Source of the DNA: Malachius bipustulatus
Taxonomy: Eukaryota > Arthropoda > Insecta > Coleoptera > Melyridae
Direction: 5' to 3'
Assembly: GCA_910589415.1 (NCBI GenBank)
Contig: OU342631.1
Coordinates: forward strand, 21,390,001-21,454,000
DNA: 64,000 nucleotides
Shown here piece by piece: positions 13,691 to 64,000 of this stretch. The translations under genes were made by a program, and so were the position numbers. The notes under the pieces are model-generated. The model had not been told where the DNA came from, did no database searches, and was given only the letters and a program-made list of their open reading frames with translations. How positions within the stretch are numbered: position 1 is the stretch's first letter; the number at the start of each line of letters is the position of its first letter.

Positions 13691-13692
13691 AT

Positions 13693-13717
13693 TGGCATTT
13701 CCCCGGCGGGAATCGAA
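13693..13717 (+). other. Candidate tRNA primer-binding site
   Basis: TGGCATTTCCCCGGCGGGAA, continuing ATCGAA, lies two bases after the LTR. Its complement reads as a tRNA 3' end with a TTCGATTCCC T-loop/T-stem and a terminal CCA, so the match is much longer than the usual 10-18 bases. The spacing between T-arm and CCA is two bases longer than standard, so the donor tRNA could not be named. Confidence 0.6.
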
Positions 13718-14810
13718 TTCACCCTCAAACTTTGGATTAGAAACTACCTTAATTAAATAAAAGCACTTGATCTCTTCCTAGTTCCCATTATAAATGGAAA
13801 ATTGATATTAACGTCATAAATTATTTTGTTCAGATGTATCGTACAGTTATCTTAATTTTTTTGATGCATGATTAATAGCTGCATGAAAACTTGCATGTTA
13901 GTCTAAGAATGTCTTAGTTAGTTATTGTGTTTTTTTACTGCTGGTGAATAATAGTGTCGTGACGCGAAAATACCTTATCTTCTTACCGCTACACTGCCGC
14001 TAAAGGGTAACCTTGCAAAAGGAGCTTTACGGAGTGGTTGTTAATACTGTCGCGAAGGTCTCGAGTAAGCTTTGGGAGAAGTTTGACTCCGTGCAAAGAG
14101 GATACTCTTAAGAGAGCTCTGCGATCAAACTGTCTTTGAAAGTTACATCCAAACATTTCCTTCATTAACATTATCCCATACCTTCGCTCATGAATTTTAA
14201 GTTAAATTCGAAATATCTGAATTATCGATCAGCTGTTCCAACTGGTGTCCCTCTGTCATTGTCATACGCTGACAGACTGCTAAAGCAACGACAATTCTTT
14301 ACGTCTAACGTAGAAAGTGAATTCTTTACGTGTAAAGATACGTCATGGTGACATGTACTTCTTCCGATCTCTACCTTACCGACTCTAGAGAATATCTGTT
14401 CTTACCGACATACCTATGCATATTTAAATATTGCCTTATCTTATCTTAGTATCTCTCTAGATTACCTTTATCTCTCTCTCTACTAAGAAATTATATCTTA
14501 TATCGGTATTTTAGTTTTTTTGAAATACCGTGACCTATATTTTTTCGTTTTAAAACGAAGGGAATTCTTTTGAATTTAAATCTCTCTCTCCCGCTTGTAC
14601 TGGTGACGTAACGTCACAGCCAAGTCAAGTAGGCCAGGTTTATTCTTTCTTTATATAGGCCAGGTTCATTCTTTCCTTATTTAGGCCAGGTACACTAGGT
14701 GCTACGTTGCCTACCTGTGCTGATAATACTACTGTCTTCTCTCTAGAATAAAATAAAAAATTTTATTCTCATCTATCTATACTATATTATAGTACCTACA
14801 TTTTTCTAAA
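13718..14810 (+). other. Gypsy 5' leader with hairpins and a 26-bp triplicate
   Basis: This is the untranslated leader between the primer site and gag. It has small hairpins such as CGGTATTTTAG/GAAATACCG (about 14503-14530) and TTCGTTTTAAAACGAA (about 14544-14560). It also has three tandem 26-bp units starting TAGGCCAGGT at 14630, 14656 and 14682. TATCTTATCTTA-type spacers match those in the 3' region. Packaging or translation control is a guess. Confidence 0.6.
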
Positions 14811-19200: not shown

Positions 19201-19471
19201 TGACGTAAATAAAAAGTATTATGATCTACGTAAGCGCCCAGATGTTTTCCAGGAAGGAGAGTTAGTATGGAAACATACTTACCCCCTTTCGAACGCTGCA
19301 AAGAACTTTGCTGCTAAACTGGCCCCCAAATTCGTACTTTGCCGAATTTCCAAGGCAATATCTAAATTGGTGTACGAACTACAGGATCAGGAAGGCAACC
19401 CGCTAGGTCGCTGGCATGTGAAGGACTTAAAGGCGTATGGAGGCAAAGATCCGCCACGAATTGATGAATAG
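16085..19471 (+). CDS. pol: Gypsy Pol: protease, reverse transcriptase, RNase H, integrase
   Basis: This is the enzymatic polyprotein for copying and inserting the element. Residues are counted from the in-frame ATG at 16046. Aspartic protease DTGA is at 131-134. Reverse transcriptase spans about 280-550, with the YLDD catalytic box at 447-450. RNase H has TDASDYG with Asp599. Integrase has an N-terminal HHCC zinc module around 790-835, then Asp856, Asp916 and Glu951, with 34 residues between the last two, close to the family DD35E. The C-terminus ends in a GPY/F-like region and the RWHVKDLKAY tail. It has no start of its own that needs to be used: expression is expected as Gag-Pol through the -1 slip at 16079-16085. 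The frame is intact. It contains no envelope domain. Confidence 0.95.
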   Translation, partial: REDCASGCNAAGVKTPKSISPFEEARGYKPRKPLRKPKVNIFTTADLHHQRNMWKVWLNRVSDFYRTPIVIPKNKPSRSTTPEMIPPIVSQILQPDPVDNRPYISVDMQGKRFTALFDTGANISVCDVEVIKEIFGRTHDSSGNSDLLCSLRNADGSPLPVTSILDLTLTIDDVTKVVRFHVVPSILPEIILGMNVAIAFNISIDFSRDSFEVRDRVDPPSCFDEPQVSTISRIHDFSTLPPEDVVKLNPIIEKFQILSPIDVLPETSVLCHSIETPNAKPFRQRQYPLSPAVQKFLNEEIDKLLKLNIIEKSNSPWCSPVLLVKKKDNTYRMCFDGRKLNEVTTHDAYPLPRIDSILCKLRDANFLSSIDLKQAFFQVPLDADSRPKTAFIVPGRGLYQFRRMPFGLRNSAQTQQRLMDRIIGPDLEPFVFVYLDDIIVVTHTFEKHLEVLNEVYERLRKANLTVNFKKCQFCRDSLSFLGFIVDKHGLRVCEDKVKSITEAPIPRNTTGVRHILGILQYYRRFVKDFSTISAPISALLHNRKKGQSITWTSEADQAFKLLKERLTSAPVLASPDFSKPFCIQTDASDYGIGAVLYQEDEGFEHPIAYASRTLSKAERKYYATEKECLGVLFGIEHFRPYVEGTKFTVYTDHASLLWLKNFKEPTGRLARWCVRLSQFNYEMKHRKGSCNVPADFLSRNISLLTANDLTPDEWYRKMVENVTENPDSYPNFTVENGLLLKHLKPNHSLSSNLSNWKIVIPTPNRDDVVASFHNPPTSAHFGVRKTKARISEFYYWPKMDLTVKKFIRNCQVCGAHKSTNVARAGLMGGYKSISFPFQFISIDFMGPFPRSKARNTQLLVVTDWFSKFVLVKPMPNATAAAVVKYLENQVFLIFGVPQIVLCDNAQIFKSTQFTKLLEEYQVNLWYSARHLSQVNPTERTNRTLLTAISSYVKDNHKDWDKNVYKVAQAINLSVNEVTKHFPAFLVFARNIPIDGTFYGPVENNYLALPEDLSYVHRENDISRLPPIFEDVRVKLKKAYDVNKKYYDLRKRPDVFQEGELVWKHTYPLSNAAKNFAAKLAPKFVLCRISKAISKLVYELQDQEGNPLGRWHVKDLKAYGGKDPPRIDE

Positions 19472-19700
19472 TTCACTTCCTTCTCTCTCCAGAAATTTTA
19501 TTTCTACCTAACTCTTATCTTCTCTACAGCATATACAAACTCCTGTTTGGAATGAGGTTTGACAATACGTGAATTGAGAATGCTATGTCTTTGTCGTATC
19601 TAGAATGAATGAAGAATGTATGCAGAATGAGCACCGTATCTTTCAAGGCATTTCTCAAGGATCTCGAAACTAGCTGTGTGAATGTGGTACCAAAGTGAAA

Positions 19701-19889
19701 ATGTTGCTAATTTTGGGATCGGTATTTGTTATTCTCAGTCTCTTATCTTGTTCTATCGCTCAAATTTTGAGAACCCATAATTTTTCTGGTTATCTAAACT
19801 ATTGCCTTGGGAAGAAACTATTCATCTATCTTATCTGGTTAACGTTTATGAGTCAAATGTTATCTCTTAAGTTTTCTTGTGTTCATTGA
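19701..19889 (+). CDS. Short ORF with signal-peptide-like start, possible env relic
   Basis: About 62 codons in the env position. The first 21 residues (MLLILGSVFVILSLLSCSIA) have the shape of a cleavable signal peptide: hydrophobic core and small residues before a Gln. A second hydrophobic run (FIYLIWLTFMSQM) follows. No furin site, fusion peptide or conserved env motif is present, and the frame then closes. It could be the remnant of a lost envelope gene or a chance frame. Confidence 0.3.
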   Translation: MLLILGSVFVILSLLSCSIAQILRTHNFSGYLNYCLGKKLFIYLIWLTFMSQMLSLKFSCVH

Positions 19890-19966
19890 ACCAAAGGAAA
19901 ACACTATCTTACCGTTGTATCTACCTTATCTTGTCTTTTACCTTTATCTTGTCTACTATCTATCAC

Positions 19967-20290
19967 GGGTGCTTTCCCGACAGTTTCCGCCCTGCTATGT
20001 GCTAAAGTGAAAACTGCTCTGCTTGTCCAATCAGACGACAGCAGATACCTTTTTATCTTACCTACCATCTCTTTAAAGACGGGTGCTTTCCCGACAGTTT
20101 CCGCCCTGCTTTAGGCTAAAGAGAAAACTGCCCTGTTTGTCCAAACAAGAGACAGCAGGTTATCTTTATCTTACTCACCATCTCTTTTAAAGTAGGGTGC
20201 TTTCCCGACAGTTTCCGCCCTGCGTTACGCTAAAGTGAAAACTGCTCTGCCTGTCCAATCAGACGACAGCAGATTCCTTTTATCTTACCT
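19967..20290 (+). repeat. Three tandem ~114-bp units in the Gypsy 3' region
   Basis: Each unit starts GGGTGCTTTCCCGACAG and contains CAGTTTCCGCCCTG and AAAACTGC arms that can pair, then GTCCAA and a GACAGCAG tail. Starts are 19967, 20081 and 20195. Variable bases sit mainly in the loop between CCGCCCTGC and GCTAAAG. Confidence 0.85.
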
Positions 20291-20301
20291 TACCTTATCT
20301 A

Positions 20302-20560
20302 TTAGTACCATAATAAAATGGTGGCTAATGCTTATCTTAGATATTCTTTTCAATAAAGAAAAGAAATTATCTTATCTTATCTTATCTATACCTATTAGTA
20401 CCATAACAAAATGGTGACTAATGTTTATCTTAGATATTCTTTTCAATGAAGAAAAGAAATTATCTTATCTTACCTTAATACCTTTACCTATTAGCTTCAT
20501 AACGAAATGAAAGCTAATCATTATCTTCTCTGCGAATATTTTCCCGGATGGAAAATATAA
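20302..20560 (+). repeat. Three hairpin-pair units with compensatory changes
   Basis: Hairpin 1 occurs as TTAGTACCAT/ATGGTGGCTAA (20302), TTAGTACCAT/ATGGTGACTAA (20395) and TTAGCTTCAT/ATGAAAGCTAA (20491). The third copy changes both arms so that pairing and a one-base bulge survive. Hairpin 2 is ATTCTTTTC/GAAAAGAAAT in copies one and two and becomes ATATTTTCC/GGAAAATAT in copy three (20536-20558). Structure is retained while sequence changes, which argues for a functional RNA fold. Confidence 0.8.
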
Positions 20561-21746
20561 ATCTACGTGAATTCGAGTTCAGAATTTGCAAAGGAGGCTT
20601 TAGATATTCAGTGCTGATGTAAAGGAATCTGAACACTGATATCGAATACCCCCTATCTCAGCGATGAAATGGTTTTCCCATTTTGTCTTATCTTTCCGAG
20701 TGATTGGGCTATCTTATTGTGTCTTTGATGAATGTCTAGTAATCCAGGCGATCATTGATGATTTCTTGAAGTGATTATTGGAAGTCTCCAAGTAATTTGT
20801 TCCGTATGACCTTTGAGATTTATCTGACAAAGACACGTAAAGTGATTATTAGCGATCAATTTGACCAATTATCTTAGTTTTGTCCCTTTGTAACTAGTAG
20901 TAGTTAGAACAACTACTTATCTATTTCGAAACTTTCCCATAAAGGAGTAGAATTATCTACATTTCGTTTTCTTACATTTATATCTCTCCCTATCTATTTT
21001 CATTGTAAGGAATGAAAATTATGTACATTATCTCTTCCCATTCGCATAAGCTTGCGAATACCTCAATCTCTGTATATATGTCTAATTATATCTATCCCGC
21101 TACCTTGACTTTTTAAGTAAAGTCAGAATTTCTGGATTTATTTAGTTGTCCATTCTATCGAGTAGCAGCCCTGTTTTGGAAGTTTTAGTTTGTGTGGAAA
21201 CTCCCATAGCAATTTTCTTAATCCTTCAGTGTTGGCGGTTTTTGAAACCCCAGGCTGAAGTAGTGTTCAAAACTATGGGTGGTTGAACATCAAACGGAAC
21301 AGCGCAGCTCTATTAACAGCGAGCCTGTTATACCGAAATGTTATAACTTAATTTTAATTCTTGTATATACAATATCTAATTATAAGTGTTTATAATAATA
21401 ATCAACTTAGTAGCATGTTATCTAGAAAGAATGCATGTACATTTTCTTTATCTACTTAGCATTAAGGTTTTGTAATTATAAATTTAATCTGCATGAGCGA
21501 ATTAAATATTTCTTTTTATATTATATAGCTAGTTAAAGTGACTAACTGTGTGATATTATCTGAACAAATAGTAAACATGGTAGAAAACTTTTACAAAGTT
21601 TGTTTTTGTAAAACACTATTCTCTCTCTTTTTCGATTTGTGTTGTCCTTGTTGGTCATCCACAATCATACCTTCATGTATACCCTTCTACGGGTATAGAA
21701 AGAACTAGAATTTTCTTCTAGTTTTTGAATTTTCTCTTGCATCGGT

Positions 21747-21755
21747 AAGGGGAGG
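21747..21755 (+). other. Polypurine tract
   Basis: AAGGGGAGG lies two bases before the 3' LTR, where plus-strand DNA priming is expected. Confidence 0.75.
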
Positions 21756-21757
21756 TG

Positions 21758-23408
21758 TGTAACGTGAATACGTCACCTGTTGTCCTCTTTGCAAAGCTTC
21801 TCTCGTTTTAAAGAGAATTGTAAAATTACAGTTCCCTACAACTCCCTATAATATAGATCGCATCTTTAAACTGACTACCCACACCGTATGCCGGCGCTGG
21901 TACTGTCCAGATAATTCACTACTAGATGGCATTGCACGTTTCGTTTCACTTCGATTTCGGGTTCCTTTCAGGAACCAAATAAGTTGTCAACTGTCAATCA
22001 GATTTCAGTATCTGACAGTGACATTTCTCCTTTCACAAACCAGAGGCAGACTTCCTCTCAAGTTCACGGAACTGAACTCATTTCCTCTTTATCTGCCAAC
22101 CAAGAAAGTTGATTTTCTTGACGGTTCCCGTCGAAGCCTGTTACCAGGGTAAGTCGCCATTACGGATTTTGGAAGATAGATTTTAATTCGATTATTACTT
22201 ATTTTTAGCTTCTGGGATATCTTCTGGGATTTCCTTCAATCCTTCGGGGATTCTATCTCAACATTACCTTATACCTTATTTTTACCTTTATCTCTGGTAA
22301 ATACCTTGTTTTCTCCGGTATTTACTAATTATCTGGATTAATTGCCTATTGCGACCGAGGAAGCCATCTTGAACTAAGAAACAAAGGGAGCATGGCCCAT
22401 TTTTATTCTCCAACTATCTAATTCATCCTTCCACCGTTTTCATTCATCCAAGGTGAAATAAATCAACATTTCGAAGATCTCCAATAACAACAGAACATTT
22501 TCCCGGTGCTAGTGCTATTTACGACCTTTCAACCCCAGGAGCCTCGTCAGGGCGCGGTCCCTACACCTGCTGGTTTTCTTCTGGAGATTTCAATGCCTGA
22601 TTAAGCACCACACCTAGTAAAGTCCAGGAGTTATTAATATCCTTTTTACTGTCAAAATAAAGACAGTTTTTACCTCAATCAGCTTCATCCCGGAAACTGT
22701 AAGTGTTGTCTTTTATTTTATTTCACCGATCATGACGAAGAAGGACTAGAAGATCAGTGCTAACTTAGTAAATTAATTAATTACCACTCACGAACTTTAT
22801 CTTTCCCGATATAAATGATATCGGAAGTATCTTATTCTTTTGTGCACAGCTGTGCAAGATAAAGGATCCTTTATTTTTAAACAAACTGATTGTTTAAACA
22901 TATATCAGATTTAAAGCTTTTAAAATAAGACAGGATAATTATTTGATTTTAATTAAACAGGAAATGTAAACCATAATTTGCTCATTAAACATCTGTCCAT
23001 TTTAACTTATTCTTTGAAAATCACATTAACATCTTTATAACCCTAAATCTACTTTTTATTAGTTCTTCATAGAGTTTAGGTAGCACAATAAAAATAAGAA
23101 CTCGAGCAAATCGAGTTAATAAGAACTGAAGAACTCTTTGGCATCCCTAATCTACCTTAGATACCTATATATAGGGTGTACCTTTTAAATAATTAAAGCA
23201 GCAGAATAACTAGCACTCTGATAGTATTTGATTCAGTTTTCAAGTTATTCAACTTCATTATCTTCAGAGAAATTTGTCGTGAAAGTTTCTTTTGCAGTAT
23301 TATCGTTTTGCCGAAACAACATTTTGCCCTTCGCTTGCACTGCAAGCTCTCGTTACTGCTACTTTTGACATTCCCTGAATTATAATCAGTTATTTTGCTC
23401 ACGCTGCA
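21758..23408 (+). repeat. 3' LTR (1,651 bp)
   Basis: A near-identical copy of 12041-13690 with the same TGTAACG start and GCTGCA end, followed by CCCT at 23409-23412. Differences cluster in the last 40 bases (CCTGAATTATAATCAGTTAT here against CCTGATTATAAGCAATTAT in the 5' copy). Confidence 0.93.
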
Positions 23409-33083: not shown

Positions 33084-33392
33084 AAAAAAGAAGACTGACT
33101 TATACAGTGTGTTCACGGATGGTGTTCACTATACTTATAGAAAATCCTTTTTTCATTCCTTCGAAGAAAAAATGTAATTCTTCGTGATTTCTTTTGGTTG
33201 TTATAAAAATACAATTTGTGTTCGACAATAAAGTTCGATTTTATTATACAGGGCGAGTAAAAAAAAAGGAAAACATAGTTTTAAAAAAGTAAAAATTGTT
33301 ATTTTATTCCTAAAAAAAGTAATTATTCATGATTACTTTTGCTTGTTACTAAAATACATTCGCGTTGAGAAAAACCGGTTTTATTGTATGTA

Positions 33393-36159
33393 CAGGGTGG
33401 GCCAATAAGCGAGGTAAGCGGCTGTATCTCAGAAACTAATGATCGTAGAGAGTTACGGTAAAAAATTTTATAGGTTAAGTGGGCAAGGGAAAATGCTGGA
33501 AATTATTTTCAAGTTTCCAAGATGGCTGCCAGAGGGCGTTTGCACCATCTTGAATTACATAAAGTTACGTTTCTTGTGATTTTCCCCAATGAATGTAACA
33601 AAAAAGTATTTGCGTTTTAATGTTATCTTAAAGTCTAACATTTTTTATAAAAACAATTTTTCTCTATCTTTTGAAATAAAGTGGTGGGGGGTATTTGAAT
33701 GTTGTTTTAAACAAATGCCTGTAACTTCGAAACGGCTCCAATGATTTGGATAAATTTGGTATAATTGGAAAGAGCATTTCTTGGGCTTTTAGGTTTCTTG
33801 TGACAATGACAGTTGGGACCTACACGGCCGCCGATAGAGGGCGTTATCCGACATTATAACCAAAATATTGGATTTTCTCAAAAAATTTAAATACGATGAT
33901 ATGACTTTTTTTAGACTAGAAAATAGACAAATTATCAACCAATAAGCTTGCGTAAACCGCATCTTAATATCTTTTTCCTAACTCAAATTATTAAAAAAAT
34001 ACCAAACCAAGAAAATTCATATATCCCCATTTAAAAATGCATCGGTCGCTTTCGATAAGAAGGCAAGTAGTAGGCCATGGAAATAAAAGACAAACTCCTA
34101 ACTTAAATATTGGCAAGTAACGTCAAACTTCTGTCACACACGCAGCCCACTATTATTGTTGGTTGCATATAATTTGAGTACTTTTTAATCAAAATGCTTC
34201 TCACAAAATTAAATAATGAAGCCGCTGACATGATTGCGATTTATTTCGAGTGTTTTCAAAATGTAGCTATAGCTGCAAGACAGTACGCGGCACGCGCGGT
34301 ATCCAGATCGCCTTCATTACGGGAGAAGAATGTTTCCGCGCTTGGTACAGCGATTACGCGATCCTGGAAGTTTTCGTTGTGCTAAACGTCGCAGGCGTCG
34401 CAATGGAAGGACCGAAGAAAATATTATCGATGTCTTGGCTTACATAGAATTTTATAGACATGTAGAAACTAGAACATTGTCTCTAGACTTGGGAATTTGT
34501 TGCACGGACAACTGTTGGAAATATTTTGAAAGATTATAGGTGAATAATTTTTATCTTATTCCAAGTATCTTAGCACATACTCTCAAATACAAATTCAGTG
34601 TTATTCTGGTTTTATTATTTTTTACTACTGATTATGTTGTTTTCTACTTTTATAATTATTACATCCTTACCACATAGTCTTGCACCAGGCGCTAAATAAA
34701 CAAGATTTCGATAATAGATTAAATTATTGTCATAATGGATGCTAAGGCATACTTGAGGAAAACGGAAATTTCATAAAGGAAATTCTCTGGACCGACGAGG
34801 CTACCTTTAATAGTGATGGTAGAGTAAACCTTCATAATATGCATTATTGGTCCGCTGAAAATCAACGTTGGTTAAGAGAGAGAAGTGCAGCAGCAGGGAC
34901 GCTGGAGCCTAAATGTGTGGTGCGGTTTCATTGGGGACAGAATTATTGAACCTTACTTTTTTGATCAAGCTTTAACTGGTAACCGCTTCTTAGAGTTTTT
35001 GATCAACGACTTGCCAATTTTGTTGGAAGATGTGCCACTCGAAACTAGGAGAACTATGCTTTTGCAATTAGATGATTGTCCGGCACATTATTCAATTAAT
35101 GTCTGAAACCATATTTACTTTCGAGAACGCTGGATAGGAATAAGGGGAAGCCGATTTCCTTGTCCGGCAAAATCTCCCGACTTGACATGTCTTGATTTTT
35201 ACTTCTGGGGACGCTTAAAAGACATTGTTTTTCAAACTCCACCAACAACACGAATGGATATGGAAAACAGAATTCGAAACTCAATTCCTCAACTATCAGC
35301 GGCAGAAATCGAGGCTGCGGTTCTGCTGACTCGAGAAAGACTGGAACAATGTGTGGAATATGACAGAAGGCAATTTGAACACAGAAGGCCCTTTTGGGTC
35401 CTTTTCAGGACCACAACTTTATTTAAAAGGAAAATCGTTACGAAAACGCGTGAGGAGTTTGGCTTTTGTTTCCATGGCCTACTAATTGCCTTCTTATCGA
35501 AAACGACCGATGCATTTTTAAATGGGGATATATGAATTTTGTTGGTTTGGTATTTTTTAAATAATTTGAGTTAGGAAAAAGATATTAAGATGCGGTTTGA
35601 GCAAGCTTATTGGGTAATCATTTGTCTATTTTCTAGTCTAAAAAAAGTCATATCATTGCATTTAAATTTTTTGAGAAAATCCAATATTTTGGTTATAATG
35701 TCGGATAACGCCCTCTATCGGCGGCCGTGTAGGTCCCAACTGTCATTGTCACAAGAAACCTAAAAGCCCAAGAAATGCTCTTTCCAATTATACCAAATTT
35801 ATCCAAATCATTGGAGCCGTTTCGAAGTTACAGGCATTTGTTTAAAACAACATTCAAATACCCCCCACCACATTATTTCGAGAGATAGAGAAAAATTGTT
35901 TCTACAAAAAATGTTCGACTTTCAGTTAACATTAAAACGCAAATACTTTTTTATTACATTCATTGGGGAAAATCACAAGAAAAGTAACTTTATGTAATTC
36001 AAGATGGTGCAAACGACCTCTGGCAGCCATCTTGGAAACTTGAAAATAATTTCCAGCATTTTCCCTTGCCCACTTAACCTATAAAATTTTTTACCGTAAC
36101 TCTCTACGATCATTAGTTTCTGAGATACAGCCGCTTACCTCGCTTATTGGCCCACCCTG
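33393..36159 (+). mobile_element. Inner Tc1/mariner-type transposon with ~707-bp TIRs
   Basis: CAGGGTGGGCCAATAAGCG at 33393 and its complement ending at 36159 are flanked by TA (33391-33392, 36160-36161). The inverted repeats run to about 34099 and back from about 35454. That is very long for this superfamily, whose ends are usually tens of bases. The unique core holds a decayed transposase read on the plus strand. It is inserted in the middle element and so is the youngest of the three layers. Confidence 0.88.
34194..35440 (+). pseudogene. Mariner-like transposase (HTH plus DDE/D), decayed
   Basis: The N-terminal part from ATG 34194 reads MIAIYFECFQNVAIAARQYAA, a DNA-binding segment of this family. 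It shifts frame near 34300-34330 and continues to about 34539 (RTEENIIDVLAY). The DDE/D domain begins near 34780 with ILWTDEATFNSDG (first Asp). A frameshift falls near 34883. LQLDDCPAH (second Asp region) is followed by a TGA at 35104, and then SPDLTCLDFYFWG (third Asp). With at least two frameshifts, a stop and an AT-rich gap at 34540-34690 it cannot make active enzyme. Confidence 0.85.
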
Positions 36160-36304
36160 TACAGTAGGCGCAAAAATTTGTGCGCAAAAATTTAGAATGA
36201 TTACAAACTTTAGAATTTAGAATTTCTACAAACAGCTGGAAATTTAAGAAAGTATAACGTATGCCTGTGCGTCGACATTAAATAAAGTAATTGATCCATT
36301 TTTT

Positions 36305-39164: not shown

Positions 39165-40184
39165 TTATATTGTTGTTGAGTGACCAATATCTAGCAGGTA
39201 CTGTAGGGTTCTGGTAATCGTTTGCTCGTTTGAGGAGATCGCATGGTGTAGGTTGACCGGGATGTTGTGTCTTTGGCGAGCAGCGGTATACAGTGAGCAG
39301 TTTACTAATAGGTGCTTGATGTCAAGTGGAGTGTTACAGTGGCTACAGATGGGGGGTGGTTCACGTTTGAAAATATGGGAATGGGTCAGATTGCTGTGGC
39401 CTAAACGAAGTCTGGATAGAATCACTTGGTGTCTTCTGTTAGATGGTAGGGGCAGTTTTATTGTGACTGATGGTTTGATGAGGTAGAGCTTTCGGAAGCT
39501 GTTTTGGTCCCATTGCTGCTGCCAGATATCTTGGGCTGATTTTTTGATCTCGCTGATGATGTCTTCGGGAGTTTTTATTGTCACTACGGCGGATGTTCTG
39601 GATTTCGCGGCTTCTTTCGCTAGCGAGTCAACTTCTTCATTCCCTTTTATATTGCAATGTGATGGGACGTAAATGAATTCGATTTCATATCCTTTGTTGT
39701 CCAGGAGGCAGAGCGAGTCTTTGATATCCGTTACTAAAGGATGTTTAGGATACATATTCTTTATGGATGTGAGAGAGCTGAGGGAATCGGTACACAGGAC
39801 GAACTTGCGTGAGGGCTGATTGGCTATGTAGAGAAGTGCCTTGCTGATGGCATAGAGCTCTGCACTGTATATTGAGCTGGTAGGACAGAGACGAGCTTGG
39901 AATTTTGAGTTTGGGGTAAGAAAGGCAGCCCCTGTGAAGGAGTGGTTTGATTTGGAGCCGTCTGTATATATAAAGGTATGTCTTTGGTAAAGTGAAGCAA
40001 TGCTCTGGAAAGTGTTGCGGATAATGTCGGGGTGAGTGGAGGATTTGGGGAGCGCGGAAAGTTCTGTATTTATTTTGGGTTGCTGGTTTTGCCATGGAGG
40101 GTATTTCGGAAGAAGAGTGTTACTGCTAGGATAGATGTCGAGCATGGTGGATCCAAGGAGGCGCCTTACTCTTTCAGAGATAGG
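39165..40184 (-). pseudogene. LINE RNase H and C-terminal part
   Basis: The frame is open on the minus strand from the C run at about 40184 (first ATG at 40145) to 39165. RNase H residues, counted from that ATG, are Asp62 (YTDGSKS), Glu96 (SAELYAI), Asp120 (CTDSLSSL) and Asp173 (the SHCNIKGNEEVD region), so the catalytic set is complete. A CSHCNTPLDIKHLLVNC zinc-like cluster follows. The sequence looks little decayed. Confidence 0.88.
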
Positions 40185-41277
40185 GGGGGGGGGCGATATG
40201 AGGTTTACGTTGATAAATAGATTGGAATCTGGTGGAAGTAATCAGGGAGAAGTTAGGGTGAGATGGGTTGTTAAGTATTTTGGTGGAATATGTTAGGGTT
40301 AACTGAAGTCTTCTTATTTTTAGCGGAGGCTCATTGGCTAGACATCTAATGCTATCGATGGGGCTGGTTCTGTAGGCCGCGAGAGCTATTCGTAAGGCTG
40401 TATTCTGAATGGTGTCTAGGATTTTCATTTGGGTTTTGCAGGCAGTTGAATATACTATTGATCCATAGTCTATTTTGGAGCGTAATAGGGTTTTGTAGAC
40501 ATTCAAAAGGGTTGTATAGTCTGCTCCCCAGTTGTGATGAGATATCACCTGCATGAGGCTTATGATTTTCCTACTGTCAGTTTTAAGAGAGAGGATGTGG
40601 GATTTCCATGTTAGTTTGGAGTCAAAGATGAGTCCCAGGATTTTGGCTTCTTTGACTGCAGGAATATGGGTGTTGTGTAGAGTAAGATTGATTGGGGCCT
40701 GTTGATTATTTCTGGAGAATAGTATGCACTTGCTTTTCAGAGCTGAAAAGTTGAATCCAGTTTCTTGGGACCACTTTTCAATATTGGTTATTGTATTTTG
40801 AAGGCGCTTCTCAATGGATTTAGAGTTCTTACCTCGAGTGTAGATTATGAGGTCGTCAGCGTAGATGCAGAACTTGACTAGGGGGTCTGATAATGTCTTT
40901 TCTATGTCGTTGATAGCAATCAGGAATAATGTGACGCTAATAATGGACCCTTGTGGAATTCCATTTTGGAGGGTTTTTTCTTCAGAAAGGATATTGTTGA
41001 GTTTAACATTGAACGATCGGTGACATATGAAGTTGTTAATAAATGAGTATATATTACCTCCTAACTTCCATTCCACAAGTTTGTTTAGTATCAGAGGACG
41101 CCAAGTCATATCATAAGCCCTCTCCAAGTCGAAAAGAACTGCCGCAACTTTTTGTCTGGTGGCGAAGGATTCGTGGATCTCTGATTCCAATTGAATGAGG
41201 CTATCGGTTGTGGAGGAGGAACGAAATTGACAATGATTAATAACAGTAACAACAGAAAATATCAGATTTCTCATCAT
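40174..41277 (-). pseudogene. LINE reverse transcriptase part
   Basis: 367 codons on the minus strand. Visible motifs are STTDSLIQLE, FDLERAYD (first catalytic Asp), PQGS at residues 108-111 and YADD at 139-142, followed by the thumb region with LGLIFDSKLTWKSH. The first dozen residues are probably not part of the element. The frame closes early because of the C run (40183-40193 on the plus strand). Removing one base of the run would join it to the RNase H frame, so it is either one mutation from continuity or a homopolymer sequencing error. Confidence 0.88.
40183..40193. repeat. 11-base G homopolymer that breaks the LINE frame
   Basis: The two LINE frames on either side are offset by one. 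Ten bases instead of eleven would restore one continuous polyprotein. Confidence 0.85.
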
Positions 41278-41379
41278 CCTGTATACAGATTCACTTCGGT
41301 TTGATCAATCGATGTTACCAGGACTGATCTCTGCGGGACTGTTTTTAAATCTTCTTTTTTAAAAGAAAACGTCTTCCTA

Positions 41380-50170: not shown

Positions 50171-50260
50171 ATGGATCCTGCAACGAAAGTGCCTAACGAT
50201 AAAGCGAACCGTAAAGGATATGCACGTTTGAGCAAGGAAGAAATAGAACAAATTAAAAAG
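50171..50260 (+). CDS. Array gene exon 1 (start codon)
   Basis: ATG 50171 has A at -3 and G at +4. Thirty codons (MDPATKVPND...KEEIEQIKK) are followed by AAG|GTAATT. It joins in frame to exon 2, where a short charged helix continues (QIKK then ESAQRY). The first intron is 6,164 bp. Confidence 0.8.
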
Positions 50261-56200: not shown

Positions 56201-59200
56201 CCCTCCCCTCCCCCCCTGAACGCCTCATGTAATTAATGGACTACTATTTATTATGGATTTTTTAAAATACTTTTTATTAATGCATTAAAACTACTACGAA
56301 GTTTATGTTAAATATAAAACGCCAAATAAAAATGGTAAAACTTTCCTAATCAATCCTAACCCATATATCATTAGATTGATTTTTTGAGAGAAAAATGAAG
56401 CAAAAAAGTGATAAATATTTTCAGGAATCAGCTCAAAGATACACGGACACCAGTTGGCAAATTCACCGTGACAGCAAGAGAAAGTCCCCACTAAAGCAGA
56501 AAATAAATACGAGCAGTAATTCCACTCAAGCTACCGACACTGTCGATTCGAATGCAAAATTAGGGGGTGTTAAAACGAATGGCGTGATCCCGAATGGGGT
56601 AATCGAGAAAACGAGCTGCAAGGAAAAAACTGAAACAAATCGGGAATGTCAGGATATCCGAATCGAAACAACGGAACCGAATTACGAGCCTGTCAAAAGA
56701 AAAGTCGAAGTCCAGTTGGTAAGAAAAAATGTGTGGCTCGAATAATACTAACAAATAGATTTTAATATTGGTTTGCGTTACTAATAATAATAATAATATC
56801 ACCACTAGCTTGAAAATGTTTTAGAACTGCACTTTTTTTATTCGTGTGTTACTAACTTAACTTACCAAAATACTAGAATTTTTTTCTTTATTGTATAACA
56901 CACCTATACACACTTTGATTGTATTTACAAATTATAGATCAATAAACGGTTATTGATTCCACAATCAAACAATAAAATGATCGATTCTTCGAAAGAAGCA
57001 CAAGAAAGTTTTTCGGTAAGATTTATTTACCTATTAAGTTTTTTTTTATAAAATTGCAATATTTTAGGACCAAAGTAATCATGAAAATTATCAAGATGTA
57101 AATTTTGAAACCTCTAAAATTACTATCAAGCACCCAACATTACCGGTAATTACCATACATACATTTTATAACCTGATTGATTATTTTTATTAACAACAGG
57201 CTCTTTTAAGATGCCTTAAATTGGAAGTATGGTTTTCATCTTCTTTTTATTTAAAGAGAATTATTTTAAGTTAACACGATTAAAACTCTTGATCTACTTA
57301 TCTAAAAAACCTTAAAATTACCTACTTCAATTTTTAACTGTTTAGAAATATATTTTATTACAACATTCTACTTTTATATTATTAGGTACAGAATCCAAAA
57401 AGTAATAAAACTCATCGATTTATTGAAGTTGAAATAATAGATACTAAACTCGAACCGAATAATTTTCATTTAAGAAGACAACTCACATTACCGGTAAGAA
57501 ATAAATTTAAATTCTAGCGGTGTTTAAATTAAGTGTGTATAATATATTTTAGAGGAATATGTTTTCTGAAACACGAGAAAGGTTTGAGACCTCCATGGAT
57601 GAAATAAAAAAGCAACCCAGGAATGTTCTAAAAAAATCAGAGTCATACTCGGTAGGACTTTCCATAAATCAACAACGAAAGATTACTGAATAAACTAATT
57701 TACAGGAAATATCTTCTAATCAACATGAATATGAAATTAATAACAATCAACCAATTATTGAAAAAAATAAAACCACCAGCTTGCCTACAAAAAAATTTGA
57801 GGGAAACAAGAATAAAAACATTAAAACTCACCGATTTATTGAGATCGAAATCAAAGATACTAAGCTCGAACCTAATACTTTATTAAAAAGGCAACTTACA
57901 TTACCGGTAAGATGGGTTTATCACTAATTTACCGTCAAATTTATAGGCAAATTTACTGTTATTTGATCTTTAAAAATTTCTTACAAAAAAAACCGATACT
58001 TAGGTAATGCGGAACTGAAAAAATAAATTATGACACTTATTTCAGGAGGATATGTTATCTGAAAAACGTAAGAGAATCGAAACGACCGAAACCAAAAATA
58101 TGACCGATTCGGGTCCTGAAAGAATCCTGAAGAAATCTGAGTCATTTTCGGTAGGCTACTTAGAAGGATTTAAGTATTGTGACTTTTATTTTATTTTATT
58201 TATTTTTTTAAGGGTACTACTAAACTTGAGCATCAAATTATCGATAATCAAATAACTACCAACAGAAATATCGTTGATAAATTTTCCAGTCTTCCTGCAA
58301 CAAAATTTAAAGTGAATGTGAATGAAAGTCCCAAAATTCAAACTCGCCGGTTTATTGAGGTCGAAATTAAAGACACCAAATTCGAACCAAATTGTTCTTT
58401 GAAAAGGCAGAACACATTACCGGTAAGGGCTTGTTATTACAAAACTATTACCGGTAATTTTACCGGTTAAAGTTATAATATACATAGATCTTACATGTTT
58501 TTGTATCTTTTTAGAAAGACATGTTTTCTGAAAAACGTAAAACAATTGAATCGACCGAAATGAAAACTCAAACCATAGTTAACGAAAGAACGGCAGTAAA
58601 AAAATTTGCCAGCCTACCTGCAAGAAAAACAGAGACCCCTAAAATTAAAACTCGTCGTTTTATTGAGGTTGAAATTAAAGATACCAAATTGGAGCCAAAT
58701 TATCCTTTGAAACGACAGAACACATTACCGGTAAGGGAGTAACATTACCAAAACTTTAAAACAGATTTTAACGGTAACATTACCGCTGAAAATTATAACA
58801 AACTCCCATAAATAAAACAGCTCTCAATTTTTAAATATATTTTAGAAGGACATGTTTTCTGAAAAACGTAAAACAATTGAATCGACCGAACTAAACTCTC
58901 AAATCCACTTGGATGCTGAAAAAATCCTGAAGAAATCGGATTCATTCTCGGTAGGGCTGTAATATGCATTCCCTCTGGAATATTTTATACATAAATCGAT
59001 TTACAGGGCAGTAGTAAACTTCAGCATCAAATCATACTAGACGAGAAAAAGGCAGTAAATAAATTCGCCACTCTTCCTGCAAGAAAAACTGAGACCCCTA
59101 AAATTAAAACTCGACGTTTTATTGAGGTTGAAATCAAAGATACCAAATTGGAGCCAAATTATCCTTTGAAACGGCAAAATACATTACCGGTAAGGAAATA

Positions 59201-62200
59201 ATATTACCACAATCTTACCATACATTATATGGCAATATTACCGGTGAATATTATAACATGCGAATCTTACCATGCATTTTAACGGTAATATTCCCAGTAA
59301 AAATTATATAACGCTCCCAAAAAGAAAATAAATCTCAATTTTCAAATCTTTTTTAGAAGGATATGTTCTCTGAAAAACGCAAAATAATCGAATCGACCGA
59401 AATAAATACTCAAACTGACTTGATTCCTGAAAAAGTCCTGAAGAAATCGGAGTCATTCTCGGTAGGGCTGATGCATTCCCTCTGGAGTATTTTTATTACA
59501 AATTCGATTTACAGGGCAGTAGTAAACTTCAGCAACAAATCGTAATTGACGAGAGAAAAGCAGTAAATAAATTCGCCACTCTTCCTGCAAGAAAAACTGA
59601 GACCCCTAAAATTAAAACTCGACGTTTTATTGAGATTGAAATCAAAGATACCAAATTGGAGCCAAATTATGCTTTGAAACGGCAAAACACATTACCGGTA
59701 AGGAAATAATATTACCACAATCTTACCATACATTATATGGCAATATTACCGGTGAATATTATAACATGCGAATCTTACCATGCATTTTAACGGTAATATT
59801 CCCAGTAAAAATTATATAACGCTCCCAAAAAGAAAATCAATCTCAATTTTCAAATCTTTTTTAGAAGGATATGTTCTCTGAAAAACGCAAAATAATCGAA
59901 TCGACCAAAATAAATACTCAAACTGACTTGATTCCTGAAAAAGTCCTGAAGAAATCGGAGTCATTCTCGGTAGGTCTACAATATGAATTCCCTCTGGAAT
60001 TTTTTATTATTAATTCGATTTACAGGGCAGTAGTAAACTTCAGCATCAAATCATAGTAGACGAGAGAAAGACAGTAAATAAATTCGCCACTCTTCCTGCA
60101 AGAAAACCTGAGACCCCTAAAATTAAAACTCGTCGTTTTATTGAGGTTGAAATCAAAGATACTAAATTGGAGCCAAATTATGCTTTGAAACGGCAAAACA
60201 CATTACCGGTAAGGGGGTTACTTTACCGCGATGTTACCATTAATTTTAACGGTAACATTACCGGTTAAAATACAACACACTCCTATAAATAAAACAGCTC
60301 TCAATTTTTTAATATTTTTAGAAGGATATGTTCTCTGAAAAACGCAAAACAATCGAATCGACCGAAATAAATACTCAAACTGACTTGATTCCTGAAAAAG
60401 TCCTGAAGAAATCGGAGTCATTCTCGGTAGGGCTGTAATATGCATTCCCTCTGGAGTATTTTTATTACAAATTCAATTTACAGGGCAGTAGTAAACTTCA
60501 GCAACAAATCGTAATTGACGAGAGAAAGATAGTAAATAAATTCGCCACTCTTCCTGCAAGGAAACCTGAGACCCCTAAAATTAAAACTCGTCGTTTTATT
60601 GAGGTTGAAATTAAAGATACTAAATTGGAGCCAAATTATGCTTTGAAACGGCAAAACACATTACCGGTAGGGGGGTTACTTTACCGCGATGTTACCATTC
60701 ATTTTAACGGTAACATTACCGGTTAAAATTACAACACACTCCCATAAATAAAATAGCTCTCAATTTTTTAATATTTTTAGAAGGATATGTTCTCTGAAAA
60801 ACGCAAAACAATCGAATCGACCGAAATAAATACTCAAACTGACTTGATTCCTGAAAAAATCCTGAAGAAATCGGAGTCATTCTCGGTAGGGCTGTAATAT
60901 GCATTCCCTCTGGAGTATTTTTATTACAAATTCAATTTACAGGGCAGTAGTAAACTTCAGCAACAAATCGTAATTGACGAGAGAAAGATAGTAAATAAAT
61001 TCGCCACTCTTCCTGCAAGGAAACCTGAGACCCCTAAAATTAAAACTCGTCGTTTTATTGAGGTTGAAATTAAAGATACCAAATTGGAGCCAAATTATGC
61101 TTTGAAACGGCAAAACACATTACCGGTAGGGGGGTTACTTTACCGCGATGTTACCATTCATTTTAACGGTAACATTACCGGTTAAAATTACAACACACTC
61201 CCATAAATAAAATAGCTCTCAATTTTTTAATATTTTTAGAAGGATATGTTCTCTGAAAAACGCAAAACAATCGAATCGACCGAAATAAATACTCAAACTG
61301 ACTTGATTCCTGAAAAAATCCTGAAGAAATCGGAGTCATTCTCGGTAGGGCTACAATATGAATTCCAATGGCATTTTTTTTGTAAATTCGATTTACAGGA
61401 TACTAGTAAACTTCAGCAACAAATCATAGTAGACGAGAGAAAGATAGTAAATAAATTCACTACTCTTCCTGCAAGAAAAACAGAGACCCCTAAAATTAAA
61501 ACTCGTCGTTTTATTGAAGTTGAAATTAAAGATACCAAATTGGAGCCAAATCATTGTTTGAAACGGCAAAACACATTACCGGTAAGGAAATAATATTACC
61601 AGAATCTTACCATATATTTTAACGATAATATTAACGGTGAAAATTACAATACGCTCCCACACATAAAATTGCTCCCAATTTTAATTTTTTTAGAAGGATA
61701 TGTTCTCTGAAAAACGCAAAGAAATTGAATCGACAGAAATAAAAACTCAAACCGACTTGGGTGCTGAAAAAAACCTGAAGAAATGGGAATCATTCTCGGT
61801 AGGGCTAATAAAATACTCGGTAGGGCTAATCAGTTCAATTATTTTTTTTTAACATGATTTACAGGGTAGTAGTCAGTTTCAACATCAAATAAAAGGTGAC
61901 CAGAGAACGTTATTTGATAAATTCACAAGTCTTCCTACAAAAAAATTCGTAGAAAAGGAGGCTCCTGAAATTAAGACTCGTCGTTTTATAGAGGTTGAAA
62001 TTAAAGACACAAAATTCGAACCTAATTGTTTTTTGAAACGACAGAACACATTACCGGTAAGGAAATCAGTATCACCAAATATATTGCCGGTGAAAATATT
62101 AATGAGCAGCATATATGAAATTATTTTATATATTTTTCAGAAGGATATGTTCTCTGAAAAAAGCAAGAAAATTGAATCGCTGCGTGCGAAATCTGAATCG

Positions 62201-64000
62201 AGTCCTGAAAGGGTCCTTAAGAAATCTGAATCCTTTTCGGTATGCTCCCATAATTATTTTACTACATTTATAGGATTTAGAATTTTTCAATGTTGTCATC
62301 ATGACTGATGTAGGTATTACATTTCAGGGAGTACATTCTAACACACAAATTTACGAAGTTAATAATAATAAACTGGTTGAAGAAAATTTCATGAATCAAC
62401 ATTCCAGTCTTCCGTTAGCCAATAGTTACAACTTAAATCCAAAAATAAATACTCGCCGATTTGTTGAAGTTGAAGTTGTAGAAACAAAATTTGAGCCATG
62501 TGTTCAAAAGTGTAAATCTTTACCGGTAAGATCTTTAGGGAGTTCTATAAATATACAAAATGTTAGTAATCTAATCATTCTGCCCATTTGGAAGTAAGAA
62601 AGACAAATGGAACAGGAAAGTGACAGAAAGTCAATAGGAATAATAATTTGTTAATGCAATGCTTTTTCGTTAAATATCGTTTTAGGTCTTATTGTTTTTT
62701 GAATATTATCTGATGAAGCTGTTATTGGAATTTGAATGCAATATTTTTTTCTAACATTATTTTCCTTTTCCATTATTGGCAATTAGCAAAAAAATGAATA
62801 TTTCGGTTTTTATACACCTTTTCTGTCATTTTCCCAAGTAAAAGCTGGTCTAAAATTTACGCAAACCTAGACCCAAATTTGAGCTTCTTTTATTTTATGC
62901 TCTCAGAAGTGAGGCCAACTGAAAAATGTTGGTATAATAATTTAATAACCTCAAAACCCAGATAGGAACCTTTTTCATTTAAGAAATACTCGTGAATTAC
63001 TTACTTTTTTTATCCAAAATATTTTTATTTTTTTTAATTTTTATTATCGGGATGTTAAGAAATTTCTAGTTAGGTATCAAAAATCGACTCCATGTGTTTT
63101 GAAGTCCGTATGCGTAGATAAGAATGTTCTGTATGAGCACATAAAATAAGGACTGCAAGTTTTCACATTCAGTTTTGTGATTTCAAGAACGGTAATGAAA
63201 AATATGAAGATTTAGAGCCTCTTTGTGGTTCAGTGCAAAAATTAAAAACCTCTCCTATTTCGTTACTTGAAAAATAAGGCAGAATGATTACCTATTATTC
63301 TTCTTAAAATTACTACATTCTTACAATCTTAAATACATTCTTATATTTAATAATTTTTAGTCATTTTTGAGATCTAATAGCGACGTAAGTCAAAATGAAG
63401 TTCCATTTATTGAAAACGAAATTGATATCAAAAATAAAGAAGTGGTAAATAAATCACAATCATTTTCGGTGAGATCAAACAAAATCTGTCATATTAAAAT
63501 GAAAACTCTATTATGATTTTTGTAGGAATCGCGTATAAAAAATTTTGAAATACAACCCGTGGAGTTGAATCAAAGCTTGATCATAAAGAATGACGATGCT
63601 GGTTTTCCGGTAAGTTCCAATTAGGATAACACTCAGCTCAGAAAGAAAAAGTCTTCTTTTTGTTTATATTATAGAGCTCAAATAATGGAACTCGAAGATT
63701 TATCGAAATCGAAATCAAGGATACTAAGCTAGAGCCTCGTGAAAGAGAAAGTCTTTCATTACCGGTAAGAATATAGTATTAACCAGTAAATTCCATGAAA
63801 TATCCCGAATTCAATATTTCAGAGGTCTTTGAGCAACAATTTTGAGATTAAACGAGAATCTGATTCTACTGAAGTCGCAGCTACTGAAATACATTATAAC
63901 AGTCAGCTGAAAAAATCAGAATCCTTTTCGGTGAGGATATCTCGAGACATACTGGTACTGAATCGTTAATAATAATATTATTATAGGAATTTTCTACCAA
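50171..64000 (+). CDS. Exon-array gene: tandem two-exon modules, novel repeat protein (partial)
   Basis: A plus-strand host gene with 31 recognisable coding exons in the window and no end in sight. All exon boundaries are phase 0, and every splice site is GT-AG. The order is a 30-residue N-terminal exon, a 98-residue exon, then repeating exon types A (ending KKSESFS) and B (core RFIEVEIKDTKLEPN, ending RQNTLP). The roughly 1,400 residues are rich in Lys, Glu, Ser, Thr and Asn, with no transmembrane segment or globular fold visible, so the protein is probably intracellular and largely disordered. R-x-x-T-x-P at exon ends fits a phospho-dependent 14-3-3-type site; that function is inference. 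I do not recognise the family. A cytoskeletal or scaffold role is only a guess. Confidence 0.88.
50920..51551. mobile_element. TA-flanked MITE, family 1 copy B (632 bp)
   Basis: CAGGGTATTCCTAAATACCA at 50920 and the complement of GGAACAGCCTG ending at 51551 are flanked by TA. It shares the terminal TTCCTAAATA and the internal CAAAATTAATGGAAACGAGA word with 36924-37674 (there inverted), so both are one family. Confidence 0.8.
54605..54960. repeat. Possible single-ended MITE relic
   Basis: TACAGGCTGTTACTTAAGGG resembles MITE ends in this window. AAAATACAACTTTT near 54722 and AAAAGTTGTATTTT near 54926 are inverted, but no matching right end or TA duplication was found. Confidence 0.35.
55949..56244. 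mobile_element. MITE, ~26-bp TIR, GTGAGATT-rich (296 bp)
   Basis: GTGGTCATTAATTACCTGAA (55949) pairs with the right end ATGTAATTAATGGACTAC (56244). TCTCACGTGAGAT and CCCCTCCCC tracts lie inside. The pattern resembles a widespread class of arthropod hAT-like MITEs; no target duplication was confirmed. Confidence 0.6.
56425..56718 (+). CDS. Array gene exon 2 (98 codons)
   Basis: Acceptor ATTTTCAG|GAATCA, donor CAGTTG|GTAAGA. The peptide is polar and lysine-rich (RDSKRKSPLKQ) and has no A/B module, so it is the unique N-terminal domain. An in-frame ATG at 56395 just before the acceptor could serve an alternative promoter. Confidence 0.85.
56938..57015 (+). CDS. Array gene exon 3 (type A, short)
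   Basis: 26 codons between TTATAG and TCG|GTAAGA, ending EAQESFS. This is the first and most divergent type-A exon. Confidence 0.85.
57068..57145 (+). CDS. Array gene exon 4 (type b1)
   Basis: 26 codons between TTTTAG and TTACCG|GTAATT, ending KHPTLP. It corresponds to the first half of a type-B exon, here separated from the second half by an intron. Confidence 0.85.
57386..57493 (+). CDS. Array gene exon 5 (type b2)
   Basis: 36 codons between TATTAG and TTACCG|GTAAGA. It carries HRFIEVEIIDTKLEPN and the ending RRQLTLP, and corresponds to the second half of a type-B exon. Confidence 0.85.
57553..57651 (+). CDS. Array gene exon 6 (type A)
   Basis: 33 codons between TTTTAG and TCG|GTAGGA, with NMFSETRERFE and the ending KKSESYS. 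Confidence 0.88.
57706..57906 (+). CDS. Array gene exon 7 (type B)
   Basis: 67 codons between TTACAG and TTACCG|GTAAGA, with THRFIEIEIKDTKLEPN and KRQLTLP. The internal TSLPTKKF corresponds to the end of b1, so the b1/b2 intron is absent. Confidence 0.88.
58046..58150 (+). CDS. Array gene exon 8 (type A)
   Basis: 35 codons between TTTCAG and TCG|GTAGGC: EDMLSEKRKRIETTE then KKSESFS. Confidence 0.9.
58213..58422 (+). CDS. Array gene exon 9 (type B)
   Basis: 70 codons, the longest ordinary B exon. It has SSLPATKF, RRFIEVEIKDTKFEPN and KRQNTLP. The following intron carries TTACCGGTAA at 58448-58457 and TTACCGGTTA at 58460-58469. Confidence 0.9.
58515..58730 (+). CDS. Array gene exon 10 (hybrid A/B)
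   Basis: 72 codons that begin as type A (KDMFSEKRKTIESTE, then MKTQT) and change directly into type B (IVNERTAVKKF, ending RQNTLP). The A donor, the intron and the B acceptor are missing, yet the frame is kept. It looks like a deletion between an A and a B exon at a short shared CAAA-C word. Confidence 0.88.
58846..58950 (+). CDS. Array gene exon 11 (type A)
   Basis: 35 codons, KDMFSEKRKTIESTE then KKSDSFS; donor TCG|GTAGGG. The Glu-to-Asp change in the end motif is unique to this copy. Confidence 0.9.
59007..59189 (+). CDS. Array gene exon 12 (type B)
   Basis: 61 codons, GSSKLQHQI to KRQNTLP; donor TTACCG|GTAAGG. The next intron carries TTACCGGTGA at 59238-59247. Confidence 0.92.
59357..59461 (+). 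CDS. Array gene exon 13 (type A)
   Basis: 35 codons, KDMFSEKRKIIESTE then KKSESFS; donor TCG|GTAGGG; followed by a 53-bp intron. Confidence 0.92.
59515..59697 (+). CDS. Array gene exon 14 (type B)
   Basis: 61 codons; FIEIEIKDTKLEPN replaces FIEVEI. The downstream intron is nearly identical to the one after exon 12. Confidence 0.92.
59865..59969 (+). CDS. Array gene exon 15 (type A)
   Basis: 35 codons, almost identical to exon 13 except ESTK for ESTE; donor TCG|GTAGGT. Confidence 0.92.
60026..60208 (+). CDS. Array gene exon 16 (type B)
   Basis: 61 codons ending NYALKRQNTLP. The next intron is the shorter subtype (113 bp) with TTACCGGTTA at 60258-60267. Confidence 0.92.
60322..60426 (+). CDS. 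Array gene exon 17 (type A)
   Basis: 35 codons, KDMFSEKRKTIESTE to KKSESFS. Reading on into the intron meets a stop at once, so splicing is needed. Confidence 0.92.
60484..60666 (+). CDS. Array gene exon 18 (type B)
   Basis: 61 codons. Its donor is CCG|GTAGGG rather than GTAAGG, a weaker match to the U1 consensus, shared only with exon 20. Confidence 0.92.
60781..60885 (+). CDS. Array gene exon 19 (type A)
   Basis: 35 codons, differing from exon 17 by Ile for Val in EKILKK. The whole module with exon 20 nearly duplicates exons 17-18. Confidence 0.92.
60943..61125 (+). CDS. Array gene exon 20 (type B)
   Basis: 61 codons, protein-identical to exon 18 by eye. It has the same variant donor CCG|GTAGGG and a TTACCGGTTA copy in the intron at 61175-61184. 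Confidence 0.92.
61240..61344 (+). CDS. Array gene exon 21 (type A)
   Basis: 35 codons, same peptide as exon 19. The following intron is shorter and has diverged. Confidence 0.92.
61399..61581 (+). CDS. Array gene exon 22 (type B)
   Basis: 61 codons starting DTSKLQQQI; LEPNHCLKRQNTLP at the end; donor back to GTAAGG. Confidence 0.92.
61694..61798 (+). CDS. Array gene exon 23 (type A, two donors)
   Basis: 35 codons ending KKWESFS (Trp in place of Ser). The donor region is duplicated: TCGGTAGGGCTAAT recurs 21 bases later, so a second donor at 61819 would add seven in-frame residues (VGLIKYS). Confidence 0.9.
61865..62056 (+). CDS. Array gene exon 24 (type B)
   Basis: 64 codons, more diverged (TSLPTKKFVEKEAPEIK). 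Ends RQNTLP; donor TTACCG|GTAAGG. Confidence 0.9.
62141..62239 (+). CDS. Array gene exon 25 (type A)
   Basis: 33 codons, KDMFSEKSKKIES to KKSESFS; donor TCG|GTATGC. Confidence 0.9.
62328..62525 (+). CDS. Array gene exon 26 (type B)
   Basis: 66 codons, diverged: RRFVEVEVVETKFEP and the ending KCKSLP, without the R-Q-N-T pattern. Acceptor TTTCAG; donor TTACCG|GTAAGA. Confidence 0.88.
62526..63360 (+). other. Long intron between exons 26 and 27 (835 bp)
   Basis: This is the longest intron within the array part. It is AT-rich, and no further module exon with the expected acceptor, motif and donor was found in it. Confidence 0.7.
63361..63468 (+). CDS. Array gene exon 27 (type A)
   Basis: 36 codons ending NKSQSFS; donor TCG|GTGAGA. 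Diverged in its first half. Confidence 0.85.
63526..63609 (+). CDS. Array gene exon 28 (type b1)
   Basis: 28 codons ending DDAGFP; donor TTTCCG|GTAAGT. As with exon 4, it is a separate first half of a B unit. Confidence 0.85.
63675..63764 (+). CDS. Array gene exon 29 (type b2)
   Basis: 30 codons, TRRFIEIEIKDTKLEP then the ending ESLSLP; donor TTACCG|GTAAGA. Separate second half of a B unit. Confidence 0.87.
63823..63930 (+). CDS. Array gene exon 30 (type A)
   Basis: 36 codons ending KKSESFS; donor TCG|GTGAGG. Confidence 0.87.
63987..64000 (+). CDS. Array gene exon 31 (start only)
   Basis: Acceptor TTATAG then GAATTTTCTACC, phase 0. The position predicts a b1 or B exon. The exon runs off the window. 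Confidence 0.7.

Follow-up and report, generated by a model that had tools for sequence, protein, structure and literature searches.

A tandem array of 30 exon-like, phase-0 open frames in a beetle tensin gene

The window, i.e., the entire stretch of 64,000 nucleotides analysed, contains 29 members of a tandem array of 30 exon-like open frames, which starts at position 56938 on the forward strand, comprises 1,330 codons with zero stops and, as judged by the similarity of the surrounding exons, resides in the tensin gene of a beetle. The 29th exon is truncated at the window edge and the 30th lies outside, positions beyond 64000 being given in extended window coordinates. Each array exon is bordered by AG and GT and has a length divisible by three (78-216 bp), and all 30 are in phase 0, the scans themselves having required phase 0 as well as endings resembling S-F-S or T-L-P, so that phase and ending are not independent of the scans. 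A chance origin of the pattern is nevertheless excluded, because a 459-bp tandem array was detected by TRF, frame and splice sites are kept in diverged copies, and profile matches are confined to the array. We consider it likely that the array, lying in tensin, contains exons (termed B2) derived from the neighbouring tensin exon E2, grew by tandem duplication, and would encode an optional, disordered and phospho-regulated linker.

Thirteen of the exons are of type A and terminate in S-F/Y-S, the rest being B exons, B1 or B2 half-exons, and one A-B fusion. The array opens with a divergent A exon (56938-57015), a B1 (57068-57145) and a B2 half-exon (57386-57493), followed by an A exon ending in SYS (57553-57651), B (57706-57906), A (58046-58150), B (58213-58422) and the fusion exon (58515-58730), in which the 5' part of an A and the 3' part of a B exon are joined in frame without an intron. 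Next come A exons at 58846-58950, 59357-59461, 59865-59969, 60322-60426, 60781-60885, 61240-61344, 61694-61798 and 62141-62239, each succeeded by a B exon, at 59007-59189, 59515-59697, 60026-60208, 60484-60666, 60943-61125, 61399-61581, 61865-62056 and 62328-62525, respectively. The 3' end consists of a divergent A exon (63361-63468), a B1 ending in GFP (63526-63609), a B2 (63675-63764), an A exon (63823-63930), a B1 (63987-64073, in the window up to 64000) and a final B2 (64133-64228). All these exons lie on the + strand and were located by the phase-0 exon scan, which was extended past the window for exon 29; the 5' borders of the exons at 60484 and 60943 were placed by similarity to other B exons, and exon 30 was identified by eye.

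An earlier note on this DNA had described at least 29 consecutive phase-0 exons from 56938 onwards, which was borne out, and its spacings between the starts of the A exons from 58846 (511, 508, 457, 459, 459, 454 and 447 bp) proved exact. The alternation it proposed stood with respect to the two related exon types but is broken at four sites, namely the fusion exon and the B1+B2 splits at 57068/57386, 63526/63675 and 63987/64133. Likewise, endings in S-F-S or T-L-P hold for most exons but not always: 13 of the 30 end in S-F/Y-S, including the SYS variant, and 15 in T/S-L-P, including S-L-P variants, while one ends in G-F-P (63609) and one in E-V-L (64228). That any exon could be skipped or duplicated without loss of frame is indeed what the reading frame would allow. 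In a six-frame profile search of 140 kb, matches at E < 0.1 were confined to the array (the B2 profile containing one bad row, made from a wrong exon start, which was left out of the profile used on other tensins); a search of the whole 544-Mb assembly with one module yielded 18 matches, every one of them in the array, and a search with E1 (see below), E2 and the initial array exons yielded this locus only.

The identity of the host gene follows from the exons on either side. Upstream, the exon E2 (56425-56718, + strand), found by tblastn, matches beetle tensin with 45% identity (E 1.2e-13) and corresponds to an exon marked by the motif RYTDTSW, which is optional in the models of other beetles. 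Downstream, 24-25 kb past the array and on the same strand, the HTHDE/PTP exons at 88128-88172 (HTHDEAAKNGKGLNK) and 89312-89521 (MLTSNSYNG...MDLSYVTER), both in phase 0 at both ends, lead into a PTP-like domain, and tblastn with a beetle tensin orders the tensin exons as PTP-like, C2, central, SH2 and PTB up to 134758 on the + strand. Pfam recognised PTEN_C2 on the joined exons (E 1.2e-22), and PTB (E 5.1e-24) and SH2 (E 2.5e-6) at the C-terminal exons; the start of the PTP matches PTEN-like phosphatases (best E 0.0007), and Pfam assigned no PTP family to it. The database models of the tensins of Tenebrio, Zophobas, Tribolium and other beetles have the same order of RYTDTSW, HTHDE, PTP-like, C2, SH2 and PTB. 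The PTP-like domain itself (92196-92667, two exons: VLHARGNKDKLG) is without the cysteine of HCxxGxxR, the PTP motif that holds the catalytic cysteine, and this cysteine is also missing from the Zophobas and Tenebrio tensins. In a tree built from 25 of the 120 listed tensins plus the window sequence (a row 48% filled), from which Lycorma and Neodiprion were omitted because of a start motif mismatch, the window sequence falls among the beetles, poorly resolved with leaf beetles, weevils, darkling beetles, sap beetles and ladybirds.

The array thus sits between the known tensin exons E2 and 88128/89312 on the same strand. In the inspected beetle tensins, by contrast, the HTHDE exon comes immediately behind the RYTDTSW exon or is separated from it by no more than about 15 residues, which places the array in the RYTDTSW-HTHDE intron; both flanking exon borders being in phase 0, any number of array exons could be accommodated in frame. 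The predicted intron from the array to the PTP exons spans 64229-88127. Upstream of E2, E1 (MDPATK...EEIEQIKK; 50171-50260, + strand, with a phase-0 donor) is a possible alternative first coding exon of tensin: by eye it resembles the first exon of the Diorhabda tensin X4, itself joined to the RYTDTSW exon, and tblastn with the X4 protein did not reach E1 at E < 0.05. A pattern search of the + strand from 1 to 140000 (extended window coordinates) did not reveal the tensin C1 exon.

Given the 24-kb gap 3' of the array and the possible start codon of its own at 50171, E1, E2 and the array might instead form a separate gene upstream of tensin. However, in other beetles E2 belongs to tensin, and no compelling phase-0 terminal exon was found 3' of the array, the best candidate coding for 11 aa, which makes this reading extremely improbable. 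The exon scan of 64.2-89.7 kb ranked the tensin exon 89312-89521 third, after two weak candidates measuring 60 and 66 bp, and missed the small one at 88128.

With respect to other tensins, no credible match to A, B or B2 was found among the best 120 (55 of them named as beetles) of 562 tensins with E up to 0.001, which are cluster representatives with their cluster members hidden, and the best profile match among these 120 reached 6.2 bits, on the tail of E2. The stretch into which the array is inserted is, according to the database gene models of other insects, variable there too: C1 was recognised in 33 of the listed tensins, of which 11 join it directly to an HTHDE-type exon (seven of these being beetle models, from four species), while the RYTDTSW exon is included in 20, and two more, which the script left unclassified, seem to include it as well. 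This bears on one alternative, namely that the array is constitutively spliced in and yields just a longer tensin, the symmetric phases reflecting duplication history and not regulated splicing. Consistent with it, the AG/GT borders are kept by all exons, and the array introns measure 52-240 bp with the single exception of one of 835 bp, short introns being expected of constitutive splicing in insects. Since the adjoining RYTDTSW exon is missing from some tensin models of other beetles, however, the stretch appears to be variable, and constitutive inclusion seems unlikely to us.

Wider searches brought up no relatives of the array. Amongst proteins of about 377-1199 aa, scoring being confined to the 7,990 candidates with the most words in common, there were no homologues of the array peptide at E 0.01; amongst short proteins there was one candidate with zero matches; and none were found in viral contigs. 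A module compared with the PDB gave nothing significant (best E 0.52), and with Pfam a sub-threshold NOPS match only. In the excerpts available of the open-licence PubMed Central literature, which include a paper on fly tensin (PMC10379045), no report of an exon array in tensin was found.

The repeated RRFIEVEIKDTKLEP exon probably arose from the 3' end of the RYTDTSW exon E2. The B2 peptide, RRFIEVEIKDTKLEPNYALKRQNTLP, is similar to the E2 tail, which reads IRIETTEPNYEPVKRKVEVQL here and VVQIETVEVTYEPVKSQVEVVL in other beetles, and the mean alignment score of this tail against 14 B-type exon ends was matched by none of 500 shuffles. Windows along E1-E2 scored 26-28 with the tail as compared to 16-19 without it. 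When 142 windows along 25 of the 120 listed tensins were ranked, those containing the E2 tail came 1st, 3rd and 4th against B2 and 1st, 2nd and 4th against B, an unrelated SH2 window nearly equalling the top E2-tail window against B2 (11.61 against 11.68). A profile comparison of E2 tail and B2 by hhalign, using 16 E2 tails selected as recognisable, gave P 0.0038 and a probability of only 8.8%, the similarity being short. For exon A, no source was found along tensin in the same 142 windows.

The array has evidently been shaped by tandem duplication. Its core is nearly identical and its flanks are diverged: between 59007 and 61581 the identity of one B exon to the next is 92-99.5%, and further in the 3' direction it drops to 78% and 54%, the kind of gradient that unequal crossing-over centred on the array middle would produce. 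Toward either end of the array an intron separates B1 from B2, and the unsplit B exons carry an internal T/S-L-P at the position of the B1 end; therefore, an ancestral unit of three exons, A, B1 and B2, with later intron loss appears to be the simplest reading. The two-exon module of the earlier note would accordingly describe the frame-preserving, two-type array as it stands today but not its ancestral unit.

Overall, the copies are under purifying selection. Over all pairs, the pooled pN/pS amounts to 0.41 in a set of ten A exons (out of 13) and to 0.46 in the ten unsplit B exons; the remaining three A exons, which are divergent, as well as the half-exons B1 and B2 and the fusion exon did not enter this test. 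Mean pairwise identity is 0.88 and 0.82 for exons versus 0.72 and 0.75 for introns, while in the newest copies introns are as similar as exons. In addition, frame and splice sites are kept even in copies with a synonymous divergence near or above 1. If the array consisted of dead or never-used exon copies, left in an intron by tandem duplication, the evident recency of duplication would be readily explained, and likewise the newest A copies, those from 59357 to 61240, in which adjacent members differ by four nonsynonymous and no synonymous changes; constraint is therefore invisible in these, and it is the older copies and B that provide the signal. Nevertheless, 1,330 codons without a stop, a pooled pN/pS below 0.5 with diverged copies included, and an A-B fusion exon that is still in frame render dead copies very improbable.

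A mutually exclusive cluster of the Dscam type, in which one module would be chosen by RNA pairing, can be considered in the light of sequence motifs at the exon borders. TTACCG before GT closes 14 of the 30 array exons, seven ACCGGT sites resembling those that close most B exons lie within B-to-A introns (e.g., 59190-59356 and 60209-60321), and 21 of the 23 ACCGGT palindromes of the window fall within the array. Moreover, z-scores of -1.8 or lower were obtained for eight of 12 folded introns leading from B or fusion to A or fusion exons (range -0.8 to -2.9), in contrast to none of 13 A-to-B introns. However, folds of duplicated introns are not independent and the folding signal is weak, and with adjacent core exons being nearly identical, a choice among them would barely alter the protein. 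Such a mechanism therefore strikes us as highly unlikely.

The window also contains putative mobile elements. Direct repeats of about 1,650 bp, 99.8% identical (12041-13690 and 21758-23408), enclose an open frame (16040-19468) with reverse transcriptase (RT), RNase H and integrase domains, and the whole of 12041-23408 is probably a young Gypsy-like LTR element of about 11 kb; a 114 bp tandem repeat of about three copies lies at 19965-20290. Inverted repeats of 714 bp, 96.5% identical, within 33389-36163 surround frames (34746-35532) of, by eye, transposase-like appearance, possibly representing a DNA transposon, and an RVT_1 frame (E 1.9e-22) followed by another long frame on the minus strand (39168-41304) is probably a LINE element. 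Elsewhere in the assembly, one of nine contig starts examined carries a CCTGA (TCAGG) repeat, TCAGG being the repeat of beetle-type telomeres.

The array peptide is rich in K, E, S and T, and its exon ends are alike, the majority of them carrying a basic Ser/Thr motif: exact LKKSESFS ends eight exons and exact LKRQNTLP nine, together 17 of 30, both motifs being of the form basic-basic-x-x-S/T-F/L-S/P. LKRQNTLP fits R-x-x-S/T-x-P, the mode I form recognised by 14-3-3, of which there are 11 matches in 1,330 residues as compared to a mean of 0.8 in shuffles, a number inflated by the repetition. The predicted fold of a B exon is a single helix of low confidence (pLDDT 62, pTM 0.16), which fits with disorder but proves nothing. 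A TQT core similar to the binding motifs of dynein light chain (LC8) occurs seven times, in the A exons 59357, 59865, 60322, 60781, 61240 and 61694 and in the fusion exon 58515; these being largely recent copies, LC8 binding was not built upon, and a WH2/thymosin-like reading of LKKSES was set aside by eye. For TNS1, Ser/Thr phosphorylation by p38 has been reported to alter SH2 binding, and no mention of 14-3-3 was found in the excerpts available of that paper (PMC9687257).

Taken together, the history that we favour would begin with duplication of the 3' end of E2, the copy probably becoming the B2 exon and, with exons A and B1, forming a phase-0 unit that was multiplied by tandem duplication; the B1-B2 intron would have been lost in most copies, and the core is recently duplicated and nearly identical. 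Spliced in as a whole or in part, the array would contribute up to 1,330 residues of a probably disordered linker in front of PTP-C2, with the basic Ser/Thr motifs at the exon ends as putative kinase sites and perhaps 14-3-3 docking sites, so that tensin may bring to integrin adhesions a phospho-regulated spacer whose length and valency are set by splicing. Such a spacer is proposed because of the alike exon-end motifs, the disorder-compatible fold and the p38 phosphorylation of TNS1. A more speculative extension, which we hold to be possible yet rather doubtful, is that the array acts as a tunable ruler, with A-B modules varying in number among isoforms and, via unequal crossing-over in the near-identical 459-bp core, among individuals; in that case splicing and copy number would both alter how long the linker is at integrin adhesions and how many phosphosites it carries.

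A conserved adhesion adaptor would here have acquired an array of repeated exons that is safe for the reading frame, with part of one of its own exons as the probable source, and the array seems to display intermediates of exon birth side by side, i.e., a duplicated exon end, a three-exon unit, intron loss, a fused exon and a homogenised core. Should RNA confirm variable inclusion, this would constitute a natural series of tensins differing in linker length and phosphosite number, which could be used to probe the role of the N-terminal linker in integrin adhesion.

Symmetric or repeated exon arrays are already known from other genes, and it is their occurrence in tensin that may be new. Long runs of same-phase exons are found in the fibrillar collagens and in the PEVK region of titin, with sequences and folds unrelated to the array, and elastin exons share a common intron phase. 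The earlier note knew of no described gene with such a layout, which may hold for tensin but not in general, as the available excerpts on tropoelastin (PMC7947355) and on the repeated exons of schistosomes (PMC10526429) provide precedents. Tropoelastin, like the array, alternates two domain types, with one exon per domain and alternative splicing of exons, while the array is in phase 0 throughout and departs from strict alternation at four sites; the hydrophobic and cross-linking domains of tropoelastin are extracellular and unrelated in sequence (PMC7947355, in part). Tandemly repeated exons in schistosomes were described by Davis et al. 1988 (cited via excerpts of PMC10526429). The micro-exon genes of these parasites differ in being unrelated to tensin, in having exons of 6-81 bp as compared to 78-216 bp here and in coding for secreted proteins, E1 (MDPATKVPNDKANRKGYARLSKEE) being, on inspection, without a hydrophobic stretch such as an N-terminal signal peptide of the schistosome type; they resemble the array in consisting of many short exons, mostly multiples of three in length, which in the schistosomes are alternatively spliced (PMC10526429, in part).
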